Below are positions 47,378 to 55,013 of a stretch of 64,000 nucleotides of DNA, one piece after another (the first letter of the stretch is position 1; every line of letters begins with the position of its first letter). The DNA is from Flavobacteriales bacterium. GTDB lineage: Bacteria; Bacteroidota; Bacteroidia; Flavobacteriales_C; GCA-002722245. The stretch spans positions 1 to 64,000 of the forward strand of contig JAHEZL010000021.1 of assembly GCA_023251095.1 (NCBI GenBank), given 5' to 3'. The notes under the pieces were generated by a model. That model did not search any database. It was not told where the DNA came from and was given only the letters and a program-made list of their open reading frames with translations. The position numbers were made by a program, and so were the translations under genes.

Positions 47378-49528
47378 ATGGCAATTATTCAAAAAATTAG
47401 AAACAGATCAGGGCTGATGTTACTGGTAATAGGTGGAAGTTTAGTGCTTTTTATCCTGGATGCCGCACTTAACCAAAGAGGCGGTAATACCGGCGGCGAT
47501 CCAAATACGATAGGTGAAGTAGAAGGAGTTAAAATCTCCAGAGACGAATACAACCAGTTTGTAAGAAGCATGGAAAGTCGTGCTCAGCAACAAGGTCAGA
47601 TGATGAATGATTACAGCAAACAACAAATCAATGAGCAGGCCTGGAATTCATTAGTGGACCTGGCCATCAGAGAAAAAGAATACGAAGCAGTAGGGATTTC
47701 AACTTCTGATGAGGAAGTGGCCACTATGTTTTTTCAATATTACACCAGCAACTTCGCGCAAGCACTGGGCGTTCCTGCCGACGTAGAGAAAGTGAGAGAA
47801 GCCATAAAAAACACAGAGAACAAAGAAGTTTTGGAGCAGGTGGATATGCTGGAAAAAGATATTCTCCGCAACTTAAACTACATGAAATACCAACGTCTGG
47901 TTCAATCAGCTTTCATTCCAACCAAGGCTGAAGCTCAGTATCAGTATGAGTTGAATACCGTTACAAATGAATTCACGGTGGGGATGCTTTCTTATTCAAA
48001 CATTGTTGATTCTACCATCAAAGTGAGTGAAGATGAAATCAAAGAAGCATACAACAAAGAGAAAGACAGCTATCAGCAAAAAGAAGGAAGAAATATCCGT
48101 TTTGTGGTTTTCCCTTTAGAGCCTTCTGCTGCCGACGAACAAAAAGTAACTGCAGAACTGGAAGGTGTGAAAGCACGTTTTGGGACTTACAAAGGAAGCG
48201 ATGCTAATTTTGTAAATACCGAATCTGACGGGAATGCAGGATATCAAAATACCTATTATGCAAAAGCTGCGGGATTGCCTGCTATCATGGATAGTTCTTT
48301 TGCTTCTTTGCAGGAGGGACAAATCTTCGGACCTTACATGGAATACAATGCTTCAGGAAAAAAAGCATTGAAAGTTGCTAAGGTTTTAAAAGTAAAACAA
48401 CTGGCCGATTCAGTAAAAGTAAAACACATTTTAATCTCTGTTAAAGGGGCGCGTGATGTGCCGGGAAGTGAAAACTTCCATCTGGCTTCTGAAGAGAGAA
48501 TGGTTGAAGTGAGCGACTCTCTGGAAAAAATATTGAAAACAAAACCGGAATTGTTTGATATCATGGTGCAAAAGCATTCTGATGATTTCATGAGCATCGG
48601 TAAAGGCGGCGACATAGGATGGATCAGCAAAAATTCTCCATATGCTCCTCTGTTTGATTCTTGTATGCTGGCCAACGAAGAAAGTATTATTAAAGTGTTC
48701 TCTAATAAAGACGGAGTGCATTTGGTGAAAATTGTTCAACAGGGAAATCGCATCAAAAAAGTGAATGCCGGAATTATTTCCCGTGAATTGCATCCTTCCG
48801 ATCAAACTTTAAATCAGTTGTATGTAAATGCTACTGAGATTTCCGATTTGCTGAAAGGCGGAAAAAACATTGATACCTTGGCCAACCAACGTCATCTTCG
48901 TGCAGCAATGCATGTGGGATTGGGTAAAAATGATTTTGCCGTGAATGGTTTGCAAGGCGGAAGAGAAGTGGTGAAATGGTCGTACAAAGCTGCAGTAGGT
49001 GATGTATCAGGTGCTATTTTATTGCCGCAACAGGCTTATGTTGTGGTTTTGGTGGAGAAAGAAATGAAAGAAGGTGCCAAGCCTTTGGAAGATGTGAAAA
49101 AGGAACTTGAAATTAAAATCATCACCGAGAAAAAAGGAGAGCTGCTGGCGAAAAAAATATCTGAAGCTATTGCAGGAGGAGCCGGAACTTTACAGGCTTT
49201 AAAAGCTAAGTTCCCTGAATTCATTGTTGACAGTATTCCTGCAACACCTGCAGGCGCAAATATGCCTAAGTTCGGAAATGAACCCGATGTAATGGGTATG
49301 GTTGCTGCAATGCCGGTAAATAAACTGTCGCAGGCAGTGAAAGGAAAACAAGGTGTGTATTTGGTTTTGGTAAGTAAACGTGCCGGAAATGAAATTAAAA
49401 TCAAGGATTACTCTCCTGAGCAAAATGACCTGGCTCAAAAAACAAAATCAATGGTGGAACAAATGATGACAGATGCTTTAAAAACGGGTGCCGATATTGA
49501 GGACAACCGCTTTGAAAAGCTTGATTAA
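47378..49528 (+). CDS. SurA/PpiD-like periplasmic peptidyl-prolyl isomerase, membrane-anchored
   Basis: A 716-residue protein with a single N-terminal helix (LMLLVIGGSLVLFILDAALN), a SurA_N-like chaperone region (about 40-230; GEVEGVKISRDEYNQFVRSM) and a PpiC rotamase domain at about 345-455 (VKHILISVKGARD..., then SIGKGGDIGWISKNS...). A C-terminal helical region resembles a second, degenerate parvulin domain. It would fold newly exported outer-membrane and periplasmic proteins. A strong terminator follows the stop, so it is a single-gene unit. Confidence 0.93.
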   Translation: MAIIQKIRNRSGLMLLVIGGSLVLFILDAALNQRGGNTGGDPNTIGEVEGVKISRDEYNQFVRSMESRAQQQGQMMNDYSKQQINEQAWNSLVDLAIREKEYEAVGISTSDEEVATMFFQYYTSNFAQALGVPADVEKVREAIKNTENKEVLEQVDMLEKDILRNLNYMKYQRLVQSAFIPTKAEAQYQYELNTVTNEFTVGMLSYSNIVDSTIKVSEDEIKEAYNKEKDSYQQKEGRNIRFVVFPLEPSAADEQKVTAELEGVKARFGTYKGSDANFVNTESDGNAGYQNTYYAKAAGLPAIMDSSFASLQEGQIFGPYMEYNASGKKALKVAKVLKVKQLADSVKVKHILISVKGARDVPGSENFHLASEERMVEVSDSLEKILKTKPELFDIMVQKHSDDFMSIGKGGDIGWISKNSPYAPLFDSCMLANEESIIKVFSNKDGVHLVKIVQQGNRIKKVNAGIISRELHPSDQTLNQLYVNATEISDLLKGGKNIDTLANQRHLRAAMHVGLGKNDFAVNGLQGGREVVKWSYKAAVGDVSGAILLPQQAYVVVLVEKEMKEGAKPLEDVKKELEIKIITEKKGELLAKKISEAIAGGAGTLQALKAKFPEFIVDSIPATPAGANMPKFGNEPDVMGMVAAMPVNKLSQAVKGKQGVYLVLVSKRAGNEIKIKDYSPEQNDLAQKTKSMVEQMMTDALKTGADIEDNRFEKLD

Positions 49529-49551
49529 TAAGCTAAAAGAACAAATTCAGG

Positions 49552-49583
49552 AAAACCGTGGAAATTATTTTCACGGTTTTTTT
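49552..49583 (+). terminator. Intrinsic terminator after the PpiD-like gene
   Basis: AAAACCGTGGAAA pairs with TTTTCACGGTTTT, followed by a run of T, 23 bases after the stop codon. Confidence 0.88.
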
Positions 49584-49651
49584 AATTCTCAGGCAGCGTT
49601 TATTTAATATATGTTGTCTTGTAATATAGAAGTCGGATTTCAAAGCTTTTG

Positions 49652-50224
49652 ATGAACGAAAAAGAAATAGTACAGGGTTGCCTGAATGGTAATGAAAGGG
49701 ATTTTAAAACCTTTTACGGCCACTACTATGGAAAAATGTTAAATGCCTGCGTTCGCTATGCTAAGGATAAGGAGGAAGCGAAGGATATTGTTCAGGAAGG
49801 GTTTGTCAGAGTATTTAAAAATCTACATCAATTCGATTTTCAGGGCTCTTTGGAGGGTTGGGTACGAAGAGTGATGGTGAATACCGCTATCAATCATTAC
49901 AGAAAGTACATGAAAGATATTGTGAATTATATGGAGGATGAGCGGGTGGTAAATATGGAAAAACACGAGGAGGACAATCACGAGCCGGCAGAAACTATTT
50001 CATCAGATCAGATTCTGGCGATGGTTCAAAATCTCACTCCTGTTTACCGTACCGTATTTAACTTAAGTGTAATGGAAGGATATTCCCATAAAGAAATCAG
50101 TGAGGCTTTGGGGATAACGGAAAGTACTTCCCGATCGAATCTTGCGAAGGCAAGAATAAAATTACAGGAAATGGTGAATAAACATTCGCTAAAACTTAAT
50201 ACCCATGAAGCGCATGGAAAATAA
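49652..50224 (+). CDS. ECF-type RNA polymerase sigma factor
   Basis: From the ATG at 49652 the protein has 190 residues (a TTG one codon earlier is in frame). Region 2 (about 15-90) includes YAKDKEEAKDIVQEGFVRVF and GWVRRVMVNTAINHYRK; region 4 (about 125-180) includes LTPVYRTVFNLSVMEGYSHK and ISEALGITESTSRSNLAKAR. ECF sigma factors redirect transcription in response to envelope signals and are normally held by an anti-sigma factor. The next gene overlaps it and has a cytoplasmic N-terminus, a membrane helix and an outer membrane barrel, so it is the candidate regulator. Confidence 0.96.
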   Translation: MNEKEIVQGCLNGNERDFKTFYGHYYGKMLNACVRYAKDKEEAKDIVQEGFVRVFKNLHQFDFQGSLEGWVRRVMVNTAINHYRKYMKDIVNYMEDERVVNMEKHEEDNHEPAETISSDQILAMVQNLTPVYRTVFNLSVMEGYSHKEISEALGITESTSRSNLAKARIKLQEMVNKHSLKLNTHEAHGK

Positions 50225-51656
50225 AATGGACGAGCTATTTAAATCGCAGCTGAATAATCTGACTGAAGAACAACCTTCAGAGATGGATTGGGCTGCGCTT
50301 AAATCGGAATTGAATAAGGAAGGACTGATCAACAAGAACAATAACAAAAGAAAAATTTTCTTTTGGTCGTTTACCGCCTTGTTGTTGATTGGAGTTGGTT
50401 TATTTGCTTTTTACAATCAAACAAAAACGGCTGCTTCTGCAGTTACTATTGTTGCAAAACAAAGTCCGGAAAAAGATCAGGTTTTGCTAGTGGAGAAAGA
50501 ACAGTTGTCGGAAAAAAAATCAGAGGGAACATTCAATAAAAAACAGCAACAGATTACTATTGAAAATAAAGAATCAGAGAAAAGTTCTTCCAACGTAAAA
50601 ACTGAAATTCAGGAAGTACCGGAAAAATCAAATTCAAAAGTTCCTTCTGTTTCTAAAAAAATAACTCTTGTAAAATCAAATTCAAAAACTTCTGAAAAGG
50701 AAAAATCGCATAAGGTGCAGTCTATATCTGTTGGCGGAATGCAAACAAGAGAGGAAGATAAAACGAATGTTGAAGTTGAAAAAAATGTTGTTGCGCAAAT
50801 TGCCGCTGAAGAAACTACAGCCAATCCAACAGAAGAAATAAAGTCGCTTGCGCTGACCACTCCTTCTGCAACAATAGCAACAACCGCTGTCGGAGTTGAA
50901 ACATCAGCAACAGCTGTTGCGGATTCAATCAGCACTGTTGCACAAATTGATACTCCTGCAACTGAAATCAAAAAAGAGGAAGATATTTTAGATAAAACTG
51001 TGTACCGTAAATTTTGGGGAGGCGCTTTGGTTTCGTTGGATTACAATGACTATACTTTAAAATATAACACTACGGACGGAAAGTATATCTCGCCGGAAAA
51101 TAAAGATGAAAGCCGGTTTCAATACAGCGCAGGAATCGGAGTGGGTTACCGCCATTCCAAATTGTTCGGCATCTCTGCGGAAGTATTGTATTCACAAAAA
51201 AAATCGCTTCACCTTAGCGGAAGCGCACCCGATACTTCGGGCAGTGATGCAAACGGCAATCAATATCACTACAATATTGAAGCAAAATATCTCGATGTAA
51301 TTGTTAAGCCACGCATTTATGTATGGCATAAAAAATTCTCCGCTTATGTTTTTCCGGGTTTTGTTACTTCCTTTAATTTACCGGGGTGGGACGGCAAAAG
51401 TTATTTTACCAAAACACAAATCACTGCCGATGGTTATGTGCAGGATAAAATCAATCTGGAATTTTTCTCTGCTGGATTTTCTTTACTTGCCGGTGCCGGA
51501 ATAGAATATGACCTTAAAAACAACTGGAAAATTATGGGCGAAATTTCTTATCGCCAAAGCTTAACGCCGTTGATTCAGCATTCTAGCTATACAGTTCCGC
51601 TCTCTCACTATTTATATTCAGTGAATGCAGGTATAGGCGTGTGCAGATATTTTTAA
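50205..51656 (+). CDS. Predicted envelope-spanning protein: cytoplasmic N-terminus, one membrane helix, long linker, C-terminal beta-barrel
   Basis: A 483-residue protein. Residues 1-50 are hydrophilic (DELFKSQLNNLTEEQPSEMD..WAALKSELN), a pattern seen in anti-sigma-like proteins of Bacteroidota. One hydrophobic helix lies at 51-70 (IFFWSFTALLLIGVGLFAFY). A low-complexity Lys/Glu/Ser/Thr/Ala linker covers about 71-265. The last 217 residues are an outer-membrane-type beta-barrel ending in Phe. The start may be 50205, 50214 or 50226; the last is 2 bases after the sigma stop. Its overlap with the ECF gene suggests that it controls that sigma factor. The linker, almost 200 residues, is long enough to cross the periplasm. 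Confidence 0.75.
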   Translation: MKRMENKMDELFKSQLNNLTEEQPSEMDWAALKSELNKEGLINKNNNKRKIFFWSFTALLLIGVGLFAFYNQTKTAASAVTIVAKQSPEKDQVLLVEKEQLSEKKSEGTFNKKQQQITIENKESEKSSSNVKTEIQEVPEKSNSKVPSVSKKITLVKSNSKTSEKEKSHKVQSISVGGMQTREEDKTNVEVEKNVVAQIAAEETTANPTEEIKSLALTTPSATIATTAVGVETSATAVADSISTVAQIDTPATEIKKEEDILDKTVYRKFWGGALVSLDYNDYTLKYNTTDGKYISPENKDESRFQYSAGIGVGYRHSKLFGISAEVLYSQKKSLHLSGSAPDTSGSDANGNQYHYNIEAKYLDVIVKPRIYVWHKKFSAYVFPGFVTSFNLPGWDGKSYFTKTQITADGYVQDKINLEFFSAGFSLLAGAGIEYDLKNNWKIMGEISYRQSLTPLIQHSSYTVPLSHYLYSVNAGIGVCRYF

Positions 51657-51672
51657 AAATAAATTATTCAGG

Positions 51673-52737
51673 ATGAATAAATTCACAGCCATTAAATCAA
51701 TAGTTTTCGGAGTATTGGTCTGGATTATTTCCAGCACATCCTGTAAAAAAGATACCCTGGAAACAACAACGGCAAAAGCCGATACTAATGTAGTAAGAGA
51801 ACTCCTGACTCAGATACAGCCTGAACAACAAACCTTTATTATTGATGCATCACAACCCAATACCCTTACGGGTAAAGATGGAATGGTGATTGAAATTCCT
51901 GCGAATGCTTTTATCAATAACAAAGATTCTTTAGTAAGCGGAAATGTTACCATTATTTTGCAGGAAATACTTTCTGTAGGAGGTCAGATTACATCAGGAA
52001 TACCGGCAACTTCAAACAAAAAGATTTTAAAATCCGCGGGAGAGTTTTTATTCAGAGCTGTTGCGGGCGGAGAGCAATTAAACATAGCGCCCAACAGATC
52101 CATCATATTTAATATTCCTGCTACCGATGTTGATTCTACTATGAATACCTTCATAGCAAACGATTATTTTTTAGGAATAACAGGAGAAGATTTTAATTGG
52201 TTTCAGGCAGATTCTGTTTTGTTTACCGCAAAACACGTTGATACTGTTGCCTGGGACAGTATTAAAAAAGAATGGAATTTTGATACCACCTATGCGAATG
52301 CACATGATCTTCAATACAAATCGGGAAAATATAAAATGACAATTTCCGACTTATATACGCACTCTATGTTTAATGTAGATAGATTCATCAATTGGGGAAG
52401 CACCACCTGGGCGCAATCAGTTTCCTGTGTTATCAATGCACCCGAAAGTTCAAACGGAGAACCCATTGATTTCACACTTAAATTAGTTTTTAAACAATTT
52501 GGCGCTACCAGTTGGTTTGATCACAAGGGATTATTAGGTACAACGGCTACCATTATAGTAGACGATGAATGGCCGGTGGGTGAAGATGTTGTAGTGCTGG
52601 TAGTTGGTGTGGGACAAAAATCCAAGAAAACATATTTTGGTAAAACCACTTTGAATATTACAGCAGATTCAAAACCTGTTATTGATATCAGTCCGTTAAG
52701 CACTGATGAATTATCTACAGCATTGGGTAATTTGTAA
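51673..52737 (+). CDS. Lipoprotein of unknown function, paralogue 1 of a tandem pair
   Basis: A 354-residue lipoprotein; the signal ends SSTSC (MNKFTAIKSIVFGVLVWIIS). The mature part has a conserved block, GMVIEIPANAFINNKDSLVSG, followed by NVTIILQEILSVGGQITSG and SAGEFLFRAVAGGEQLNIAP. This resembles the ZU5-like/beta-sandwich domain found in many Bacteroidota surface proteins. The C-terminus GKTTLNITADSKPVIDISPL is also shared with the next gene. It starts 16 bases after the envelope-spanning protein gene, so it may belong to the sigma factor operon, and ends at an intrinsic terminator. Function unknown. Confidence 0.75.
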   Translation: MNKFTAIKSIVFGVLVWIISSTSCKKDTLETTTAKADTNVVRELLTQIQPEQQTFIIDASQPNTLTGKDGMVIEIPANAFINNKDSLVSGNVTIILQEILSVGGQITSGIPATSNKKILKSAGEFLFRAVAGGEQLNIAPNRSIIFNIPATDVDSTMNTFIANDYFLGITGEDFNWFQADSVLFTAKHVDTVAWDSIKKEWNFDTTYANAHDLQYKSGKYKMTISDLYTHSMFNVDRFINWGSTTWAQSVSCVINAPESSNGEPIDFTLKLVFKQFGATSWFDHKGLLGTTATIIVDDEWPVGEDVVVLVVGVGQKSKKTYFGKTTLNITADSKPVIDISPLSTDELSTALGNL

Positions 52738-52761
52738 AATTTTGTTGGATAGTTTCTTTCC

Positions 52762-52796
52762 ACCTGCTTCATAACAATGAAGCAGGTTTTTTCTTT
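52762..52796 (+). terminator. Intrinsic terminator after lipoprotein paralogue 1
   Basis: ACCTGCTTCAT and ATGAAGCAGGT form a perfect 11-bp stem around a 4-base loop and run into TTTTTTC. The identical stem recurs after paralogue 2. Confidence 0.92.
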
Positions 52797-52897
52797 TCAG
52801 GATTATTTATAATAAATATTTTTTTCAGGCAGCGCTTTTGATTTGTGATTTGTCTTCATAATACAGACACCTAAAACAAACACTAAAAATTAAAATT

Positions 52898-53971
52898 ATG
52901 ATGAACAAATTCACAACAATTAAAACAATGTTACTGGGGGCAGTGGCTCTGAGTATTTTTGCAGTATCCTGTAAAAAAGATACGCTGGAAACCATTACTC
53001 CGACAGAAGATGCTACTGCGGTAGATAATCTTTTAAGTAAAATGGATCCTGAAATGCAATCGTTTACGATTGATCCATCCCAACCCCAAACCATTACAGG
53101 AACAGAAGGAACTGTAATTAATATTCCTGCCAATGCATTTGTTGATGCCAATGGAAATGCAATAACAGGTAATGTTACTATTTCATTAAAAGAAATTCTA
53201 AGTCTGAAAGATCAAATCACTTCAGGTGCGTATGCAGTTTCAAATGGTGAGTTGTTGAAATCAGGCGGAGAATTTTTCTTTGAGGCAACAGCCAATGGCG
53301 AAAAATTAAAATTGGCAGTGAATCAATCCATTACTTTTGATATCCCTGCTACTGAGGTTGACTCTACCATGCAGGTATTTATAGGACAGGAAGTAAGTGA
53401 AGATTCTACCGGATCAAATGTAAACTGGATTCCTGCCGACACCTCCAAATACCAAACTGTTGTTACGGATAGTGTGTGGAATTCAAAAGACACTTCATGG
53501 ACTATGGATACTGCTTTCCTGGCCACTTATCAATTGTATATGACTTTGAGTGGTTATACCATGAAGGTTTATGATATTTATAATACTTCCTATTACAATT
53601 GCGATCACTTTTACAACTATCCTAATTTGATTGGGGAATTGCCTGTTACTATCACAAATGCCAGCAATGAACAAGACGAGGTAGTTGATTACAGTATAAA
53701 ATTAGTGTATAAGAAATTGGGTAGTGTAGCGGAAGGCTATGAACCTAACTCCGGTTACTCAGGACTTTTGGATAAAAAATTCTCGGGAGGAATTTCTTCT
53801 ACTTGGTTAACAGGTGAAGATGTGATCGTGATTGTGGTGGGCGTAGGACAAAAATCTAAGAAAGCTTATTATGGTAAAACCAGTCTGACTCTTAGCTCTA
53901 GTTCAAATCCTTCTATATCTATAAATACAATAAGTGATGCCGATTTAGCTGCTGCTTTGGATAATTTATAA
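52898..53971 (+). CDS. Lipoprotein of unknown function, paralogue 2 of a tandem pair
   Basis: A 357-residue lipoprotein (signal MNKFTTIKTMLLGAVALSIF, lipobox ending AVSC) with the same layout as the preceding gene: CKKDTLETITPTEDATAV, then GTVINIPANAFVDANGNAIT, NVTISLKEILSLKDQITSG and the shared ending VVGVGQKSKKAYYGKTSLTL. The two genes are clearly a tandem duplication, including their terminators. The stop codon lies inside the convergent aminotransferase-like gene's end by 53 bases. The role is unknown. Transcription appears to be separate from paralogue 1, since a terminator lies between them. The first codon may be 52898 or the next ATG at 52901. Confidence 0.75.
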   Translation: MMNKFTTIKTMLLGAVALSIFAVSCKKDTLETITPTEDATAVDNLLSKMDPEMQSFTIDPSQPQTITGTEGTVINIPANAFVDANGNAITGNVTISLKEILSLKDQITSGAYAVSNGELLKSGGEFFFEATANGEKLKLAVNQSITFDIPATEVDSTMQVFIGQEVSEDSTGSNVNWIPADTSKYQTVVTDSVWNSKDTSWTMDTAFLATYQLYMTLSGYTMKVYDIYNTSYYNCDHFYNYPNLIGELPVTITNASNEQDEVVDYSIKLVYKKLGSVAEGYEPNSGYSGLLDKKFSGGISSTWLTGEDVIVIVVGVGQKSKKAYYGKTSLTLSSSSNPSISINTISDADLAAALDNL

Positions 53972-55013
53972 AAATCGTTTTTTGATTATTTTTTTTACCT
54001 GCTTCATTTTTATGAAGCAGGTTTTTTCTTTTTGAAAGGCCGCCTATTATTTTATTTTCAAATTCTTTTATTTCTTCTTCTCTTAAGTGAGACGGCAGAT
54101 AAATGCAGCGCGCCGTGCCTTTCAGGATATTGAGGCGCTGTAATTTTTTAAGAGGACGATTGCAACCGAAATTATTTAACCATAAAATACTGCCGAAATT
54201 ATTGAGGAGACCCTGAGGAAAATCTTTTTTTAATTTTTTGTTGATGGAAGTACGCAATTCATTGCCCTGATTATTCCAGTGGAGATAAAAACTGCTTTTC
54301 GAAAAAGTTATTTCATCGGCAATTTTTTTACAGGCAATCAATCCTTCTGCTTTAGGAGCAAATGTTCCGGGAAGAAATGCTTCATCAAAAAAATCAGGGG
54401 AGTGGGCTAGGGCACCGAGGGGAATGCCATTGGAAATGTTTTCACCAAGCAGTACAGCGTCTGCCTGAAACTGAAAAATAAAGTTGAGCCCTTTCTGATG
54501 AAGGCGTGCGATAGTTTTTCTTTCATCGAGAATGAAAGGAATACCGCTCCCGGAACATAATGTCCTAAGAGAATGGATCCGTTGTTCAAAATCAATACAT
54601 TTTTGAATGACAAACAATGGATCTAAAATAAGTGCAGCTACTTCGTCGGATCTTTCCGTTAGAAAAGATTTGGCGCCGCGCAGCTGATATATATATGAAA
54701 AGTTAGGCTGAGAAAATTTTTGAGGAAAACCGAAATAGAGAATTTTTTTGTTTGTGTCTTTGGCTTTGTAGTACTCACTCAAAAAGTGGAAGGTGCTCAT
54801 TTCCGATTTAAAAAAAGCAGTGTTGTTGAAGTTTGTTATTTGTTGTAAAGCACTTTCTGCCTCTTTAATCAGGGGGGATATTTTTCCGAAGAGTTGTCCG
54901 ATTTCTATCCGTTGTTCAATGAAATTTCTCATCTCCACATCCGAACAGTGAACGATGTTTCGTTCAGAAATTCTGTTTGTTATGCCTAAAGCCGGATGAT
55001 TCATTAATTTCAT
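53919..55013 (-). CDS. Class III aminotransferase-fold protein lacking the PLP lysine (probable pseudoenzyme)
   Basis: The 364-residue protein aligns by eye with glutamate-1-semialdehyde aminotransferase-type proteins. FFKSEMSTFHFLSEYYKAKD corresponds to the SGTEA region, IPFILDERKT (159-167) to the LIFDEV motif with its PLP-contacting Asp, and LGENISNGIPLGALA (189-203) to LGKxIGGGxPxGA. The lysine that binds PLP is Glu191 here, and the SGTEA residues are also changed, so normal transamination is not expected. The last 35 or so residues run through the terminator and coding end of the convergent lipoprotein gene, and may be an acquired extension. Pathway unknown. Confidence 0.65.
   Translation of the reverse strand: MKLMNHPALGITNRISERNIVHCSDVEMRNFIEQRIEIGQLFGKISPLIKEAESALQQITNFNNTAFFKSEMSTFHFLSEYYKAKDTNKKILYFGFPQKFSQPNFSYIYQLRGAKSFLTERSDEVAALILDPLFVIQKCIDFEQRIHSLRTLCSGSGIPFILDERKTIARLHQKGLNFIFQFQADAVLLGENISNGIPLGALAHSPDFFDEAFLPGTFAPKAEGLIACKKIADEITFSKSSFYLHWNNQGNELRTSINKKLKKDFPQGLLNNFGSILWLNNFGCNRPLKKLQRLNILKGTARCIYLPSHLREEEIKEFENKIIGGLSKRKNLLHKNEAGKKNNQKTIFINYPKQQLNRHHLLYL
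53997..54027 (+). terminator. Intrinsic terminator after lipoprotein paralogue 2
   Basis: ACCTGCTTCAT and ATGAAGCAGGT form a perfect stem with a 4-base T loop, followed by TTTTTT. The stem is identical to that at 52762. It lies inside the convergent aminotransferase-like gene, where it encodes residues of about 329-339. Confidence 0.9.

Follow-up and report, generated by a model that had tools for sequence, protein, structure and literature searches.

A locus in the genome of a Flavobacteriales bacterium probably constitutes a Dma/Reo-type switch for envelope sensing that is complete in itself, with autoregulation and a lipoprotein response. It lies in the window, that is, the whole stretch of 64,000 nucleotides analysed here (contig JAHEZL010000021.1 of assembly GCA_023251095.1), and its features are collected in Table 1.

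In Bacteroides thetaiotaomicron, Dma1 and Dma2 consist of an N-terminal sigma-binding domain, a transmembrane (TM) helix, a long disordered tether and a C-terminal barrel; their genes adjoin an ECF sigma gene, and upon deletion of dma2 its neighbour genes were among the most raised (PMC13088901). Reo of Phocaeicola vulgatus is reported to span all compartments from the cytoplasm to the surface (PMC9308784, PMC13114119), and the EcfO-Reo regulon holds nigD genes, with three paralogues (PMC13114119). It is important to point out that the likeness of the present locus to these Bacteroides systems was judged from the published layout. A previous reading of the DNA, made from the sequence only, had proposed that one chain links the outer membrane to the sigma factor. 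Prediction and conservation back this proposal, but the idea as such is not new, since it is the published architecture of Dma1/Dma2 and of Reo (P. vulgatus, B. fragilis).

Table 1. Features of the locus (positions in the window).
Feature	Position	Strand	Basis
Hairpin resembling a terminator, at the end of the upstream PpiD/SurA-like gene	49545..49581	+	by eye
Predicted promoter of the sigma operon, cognate to the ECF sigma factor, CAGGCAGCG-N15-TTGTCTT	49590..49620	+	
ECF sigma factor gene, 190 aa	49652..50224	+	ATG at 49652; Pfam Sigma70_r2 and r4_2
Dma/Reo-like anti-sigma factor, 483 aa	50205..51656	+	Pfam, charge, AlphaFold, Foldseek, orthologues
Cytoplasmic N-terminus, aa 1-50, with two helices and near-invariant Trp29 motif, predicted sigma-binding	50205..50354	+	
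Helix in the inner membrane, aa 51-69, N-in as judged from charge	50355..50411	+	
Disordered periplasmic tether, aa 70-265	50412..50999	+	pLDDT <50, composition
C-terminal 8-stranded outer-membrane barrel, aa 266-483, Phe at end	51000..51653	+	Pfam, AlphaFold, Foldseek
Lipoprotein 1, 354 aa, in sigma operon, 16 nt past anti-sigma stop	51673..52737	+	
Intrinsic terminator after lipoprotein 1	52762..52795	+	
Second promoter copy, 5' of lipoprotein 2, CAGGCAGCG-N15-TTGTCTT	52826..52856	+	
Lipoprotein 2, 357 aa, paralogue of lipoprotein 1, own transcription unit	52898..53971	+	
Intrinsic terminator after lipoprotein 2	53997..54030	+	

The sigma factor and its predicted envelope-spanning partner

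The ECF sigma factor matches both Pfam regions (Sigma70_r2, E=3e-15; r4_2, E=5e-16) and has relatives at 47-82% identity. General ECF models are matched, while the TIGR02985 score of 103 bits is below the cut-off of 126. The last 20 nt of the gene are the start of the 483-codon partner gene. The elements named in the sequence-only reading are all there, at the positions that it gave.

The four-part architecture of the partner is predicted with confidence. Its single TM helix (51-69) is preceded by some 50 residues, as had been read from the sequence (a short cytoplasmic N-terminus and one inner-membrane helix), and the net positive stretch KNNNKRK lies immediately N-terminal of it. In 70 of 78 relatives, the charge N-terminal of the helix is more positive than on the C-terminal side. 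The linker that follows (70-265) has 196 residues, only two of them aromatic, and is rich in Lys, Glu, Thr and Ser. The earlier description as almost 200 low-complexity residues is right about the length, but "low complexity" is a loose term for a disordered stretch that has no simple repeat (3.63 bits, compared to 4.07 bits for the barrel). At full extension, the tether measures about 70 nm, which is ample to cross the periplasm.

The AlphaFold model of the partner, run on an alignment of 36 sequences, has helices at 2-17, 26-38 and 47-72, the N-terminal ones being moderately confident (pLDDT 62-82). Residues 76-265 are without structure (pLDDT <50), and eight long strands at 270-482 form a barrel (pLDDT mostly 75-98). 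The barrel domain matches OMP_b-brl_2 (PF13568) above the Pfam cut-off (E=4e-10), and the top Foldseek match is the TM domain of OmpA (E=3e-8), with OmpX, OmpW, NspA and Ail lower. The claim of an outer-membrane-type barrel ending in Phe is borne out, Phe483 being the final residue, and the C-terminal fold, which had been named as a point to check, is predicted to be an 8-stranded OmpA-like barrel. In OmpA-like barrels the N-terminus is on the periplasmic side, which fits a tether coming from the inner membrane.

The partners share a motif before the TM helix, with a Trp in 90% or more of the aligned proteins, and hardly any sigma-adjacent partner lacks the motif, which probably serves as the sigma-binding unit. 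Several relatives have it in tandem, with two to four copies before the helix (it is repeated two or more times in L076, L084, L089, L094, L101, L105, L108, L135, L141 and L153). The tandem arrangement suggests a short self-standing module, and the repeated motif perhaps binds more than one sigma molecule.

A predicted shared promoter and the lipoprotein genes

The same bipartite element, a predicted promoter, is found upstream of the sigma gene and of lipoprotein 2. The motif was first spotted by eye at these two sites and then tested, and the independent part of the tests consists of the relatives and the genome-wide searches. No match to the element was obtained in 100 shuffles. Nine promoters from five genomes were aligned (sigma and lipoprotein 2 of the present genome, G000; sigma and lipoproteins 2 and 3 of G003; sigma and lipoprotein of G004; G016; G037), and only one of the 14 core bases (GGCAGCG and TTGTCTT) varies, the other 13 being invariant, with the N15 spacing fixed. 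The element is exact in G000, G003, G004 and G016, and its core is kept in G037 and also in G315; by eye, G349 has a degenerate version that is one base shorter.

Genome-wide searches of G000, G003 and G004 gave nine exact matches. Seven of these precede sigma or lipoprotein genes of this locus, and the other two are inside ORFs; the intergenic copies are confined to this locus. The element is absent, even with one mismatch, from six genus or family neighbours without the sigma-partner pair. In the sigma tree, the genomes with this promoter, seven in number, form one clade that has no other member (support 99/96). The predicted promoter is specific to this sigma clade, and the option that the wider sigma family has it in general was rejected, since the core is upstream of none of 78 more distant sigma relatives.

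As an intrinsic terminator stands behind each lipoprotein gene, two transcription units are predicted, one comprising sigma factor, anti-sigma factor and lipoprotein 1, and the other lipoprotein 2. We infer that this sigma factor reads the shared promoter, and the simplest reading would then be autoregulation coupled to lipoprotein output, in the manner of EcfO-Reo and its nigD genes. A sigma-70 promoter scan of the region gave chance-level matches only, and no RNA families were found in it. Directly upstream of the locus is a gene for a PpiD/SurA-like peptidyl-prolyl isomerase (window 47378-49528). It is also upstream in G003 and G004, where a comparable hairpin occupies the same position, and not in more distant relatives; this envelope-folding neighbour may be coincidental.

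The two downstream lipoproteins had been called paralogous, and they are indeed 44% identical over their length, with the lipobox SC/KKD and the common start SC/KKDTLE. Neither has a Pfam family above the cut-off. Both are predicted to be all-beta, with no convincing fold match to known structures in the PDB. NigD was considered as an identity and rejected (no Pfam or PDB sequence match, weak Foldseek, TM-score about 0.2). A profile of the lipoproteins matches 214 of the 395 genomes sampled in the class, mostly via the N-terminal half. Since the sigma operon includes lipoprotein 1, and the sigma gene's own promoter also precedes lipoprotein 2, both lipoproteins are very probably outputs that are switched on by the sigma factor. 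The sequence-only reading had left it at "input or output", a choice that the operon and the promoter largely settle in silico for the latter.

Some further observations concern the lipoproteins. In another ECF partner of G000 (L046:831-2411, G000:C9), the stretch past the TM helix has weak similarity to the lipoproteins of the window; a single comparison gave 29% across 78 aa, with E=1e-6. Lipoproteins of varied length and sequence come after the pair at L158, L159, L160, L163 and L171, and those that follow the pair in many relatives mostly start with C-K/E-K-D-x-L from the lipidated Cys. This start is common among Bacteroidota lipoproteins, and its recurrence may be of little meaning.

Conservation of the pair and its other outer ends

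Orthologues turned up in whole-genome searches, at 51% and 40% identity in two of the four genus neighbours and also in more distant families. The order sigma-partner-lipoprotein is kept in G003, which has three lipoproteins, and in G004, G016, G315 and G349, which have one each. Such conservation of gene order across relatives of several families points to more than chance.

Among the best 80 named sigma relatives of the search, all from Bacteroidota or unassigned bacteria, 78 have an immediately downstream partner ORF with an N-terminal TM helix, and the two genes mostly overlap by 1-26 nt. OMP_b-brl_2 is matched by 35 of the 69 partners scanned, the tether is by a rough estimate at least 126 residues long in 58 partners that are 400 aa or longer, and Bacteroidales relatives with the same layout were found. 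Judged from these searches, the putative pair is widespread in Bacteroidota. When genome contigs were scanned with the anti-sigma protein alone, no relative was obtained, whereas the sigma alignment did find relatives; this is attributed to the fast divergence of linker and barrel. One sigma factor, on a contig titled Polynucleobacter meluiroseus MAG (L099), is nearly identical to a Crocinitomicaceae one (L096), and the Polynucleobacter label is probably a case of binning contamination.

We now turn to partners with other outer ends. Two of them are encoded in the same genome. The ECF sigma partner at L045:5119-7047 (G000:C10) has a C-terminal PorP/SprF barrel, of the type IX secretion system (T9SS), and four tandem Trp motifs before the helix, while the one at L049:5020-6690 (G000:C42) combines a PorP/SprF barrel with a different N-terminal domain. 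At L030, the sigma factor and its short TM partner have as a neighbour a separate protein that by eye is PorP/SprF-like. In at least nine named relatives, partners with the Trp motif and TM helix lack the barrel and end instead in CHU_C, a type IX secretion signal, above the Pfam cut-off (L076, L077, L078, L085, L090, L092, L102, L111, which is from Crocinitomix catalasitica, and L143). These are mostly from Flavobacteriales, usually with PKD domains before CHU_C, and they include an isolate and a complete genome. The outer end switches about eight times on the sigma tree, an approximate count, as the partner classes come partly from ORF length and C-terminal residues. No report of anti-sigma factors with CHU_C or PorP/SprF was found in a partial literature search. 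We tentatively suggest, with a confidence slightly short of even, that Bacteroidota have one anti-sigma/inner-membrane chassis with exchangeable ends (OmpA-like barrel, PorP/SprF barrel, CHU_C), the T9SS-ended forms of which would relay the state of the T9SS or its cargo to transcription.

Proposed mechanism, alternatives and related systems

The mechanism that we propose is based on the layout, the predicted fold, the shared promoter and the conservation. The 483-aa protein would have its N-terminus in the cytoplasm, cross the inner membrane once and reach, through the disordered periplasmic tether, a small barrel in the outer membrane. In the resting state, the N-terminal helices with the Trp29 motif would hold the ECF sigma factor. 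A trigger at the outer membrane, where the barrel may be unassembled, or bound, pulled or damaged from outside, would be relayed via the tether, or would cause cleavage, and the sigma factor would be freed. It would then transcribe its own operon (sigma, anti-sigma, lipoprotein 1) as well as lipoprotein 2 through the shared promoter, and the outcome would be autoregulation and a burst of envelope lipoproteins as response. Here, we infer the double insertion, the sigma binding, the match of sigma factor and promoter, the signal and the function of the lipoproteins.

Another option is that the partner is cut after the helix, by signal peptidase or a regulated protease, into a short anti-sigma factor and a free barrel, with signalling by co-production and not through the tether. 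An AxA triplet does follow the helix (aa 77-79) and could be a weak signal-peptidase site, stand-alone barrel homologues exist in many genomes, and some Chitinophagaceae relatives have short partners without an outer-membrane end. However, the triplet is not kept in the orthologues of G003, G004, G016 and G037, the long tether is kept in relatives although cleavage would not need it, and the fusion is retained across the phylum-wide set. We consider this scenario quite unlikely. Surface signalling of the FecI-FecR type, with a TonB receptor elsewhere, is very improbable. An ECF sigma factor with a single-pass partner would be consistent with it, as would the TIGR02985 score, though below the cut-off, but the barrel is fused to the partner, Pfam gives no FecR match there, and no TonB receptor gene is present over about 3.6 kb on the upstream side of the group and 3.5 kb on its downstream side. 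The locus is in this respect unlike the FecI-FecR-TonB receptor scheme, as the sequence-only reading had stated.

A sensor role of the lipoproteins is compatible with their also being members of the regulon. They could, for example, bind to the barrel as ligands, or plug it, so that the anti-sigma factor stays in its holding state; their induction would then be negative feedback. One or more lipoproteins follow the pair in six of the seven clade members, but the copy number ranges from 0 to 3, with G037 having pair and promoter and no adjacent lipoprotein, while G002 has kept a lipoprotein homologue without the pair. Such an additional input function thus seems rather doubtful to us.

The proposed tethered switch can be compared with known systems. 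Dma1/Dma2 with Das1/Das2 of B. thetaiotaomicron have the same four-part layout and an adjacent ECF sigma gene, but genus and sequence are different, and the window lipoproteins are not NigD by sequence. EcfO-Reo (Phocaeicola vulgatus/Bacteroides fragilis) likewise has a cytoplasm-to-surface anti-sigma factor and several surface lipoproteins in its regulon. There, the output is three nigD paralogues; in the window, it is another lipoprotein family that adjoins the pair and whose predicted promoter was identified from sequence. The parallel would thus be one of wiring and not of output protein. FecI-FecR-FecA also combines an ECF sigma factor and a single-pass inner-membrane holder with a signal from the outer membrane, but the window has neither a FecR domain nor a separate TonB receptor, and the barrel is on the same chain. 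In PorA/PorXY-SigP, signalling to an ECF sigma factor is influenced by a protein with a T9SS C-terminal domain (PMC7712824). This T9SS link bears on the CHU_C- and PorP-ended relatives; that system, however, uses a two-component system and separate proteins, whereas these relatives fuse the T9SS part to the sigma partner.

Dma/Reo proteins belong to the few known routes along which a single molecule may relay an event at the outer membrane to RNA polymerase. What is added here is a readable local regulon and the T9SS-linked variants. The locus is compact. With a promoter that can be read from the sequence and an apparent regulon made up of the operon itself and one to three lipoproteins, it is a case in which a two-promoter reporter would measure the signalling directly. 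The T9SS-linked ends suggest a scheme that extends beyond the published barrel type, and they connect T9SS status to transcription in a way that can be tested. If this is true, the state of the T9SS or of surface cargo would be read directly into transcription via a single chain that runs from the sigma factor to the secretion machinery.
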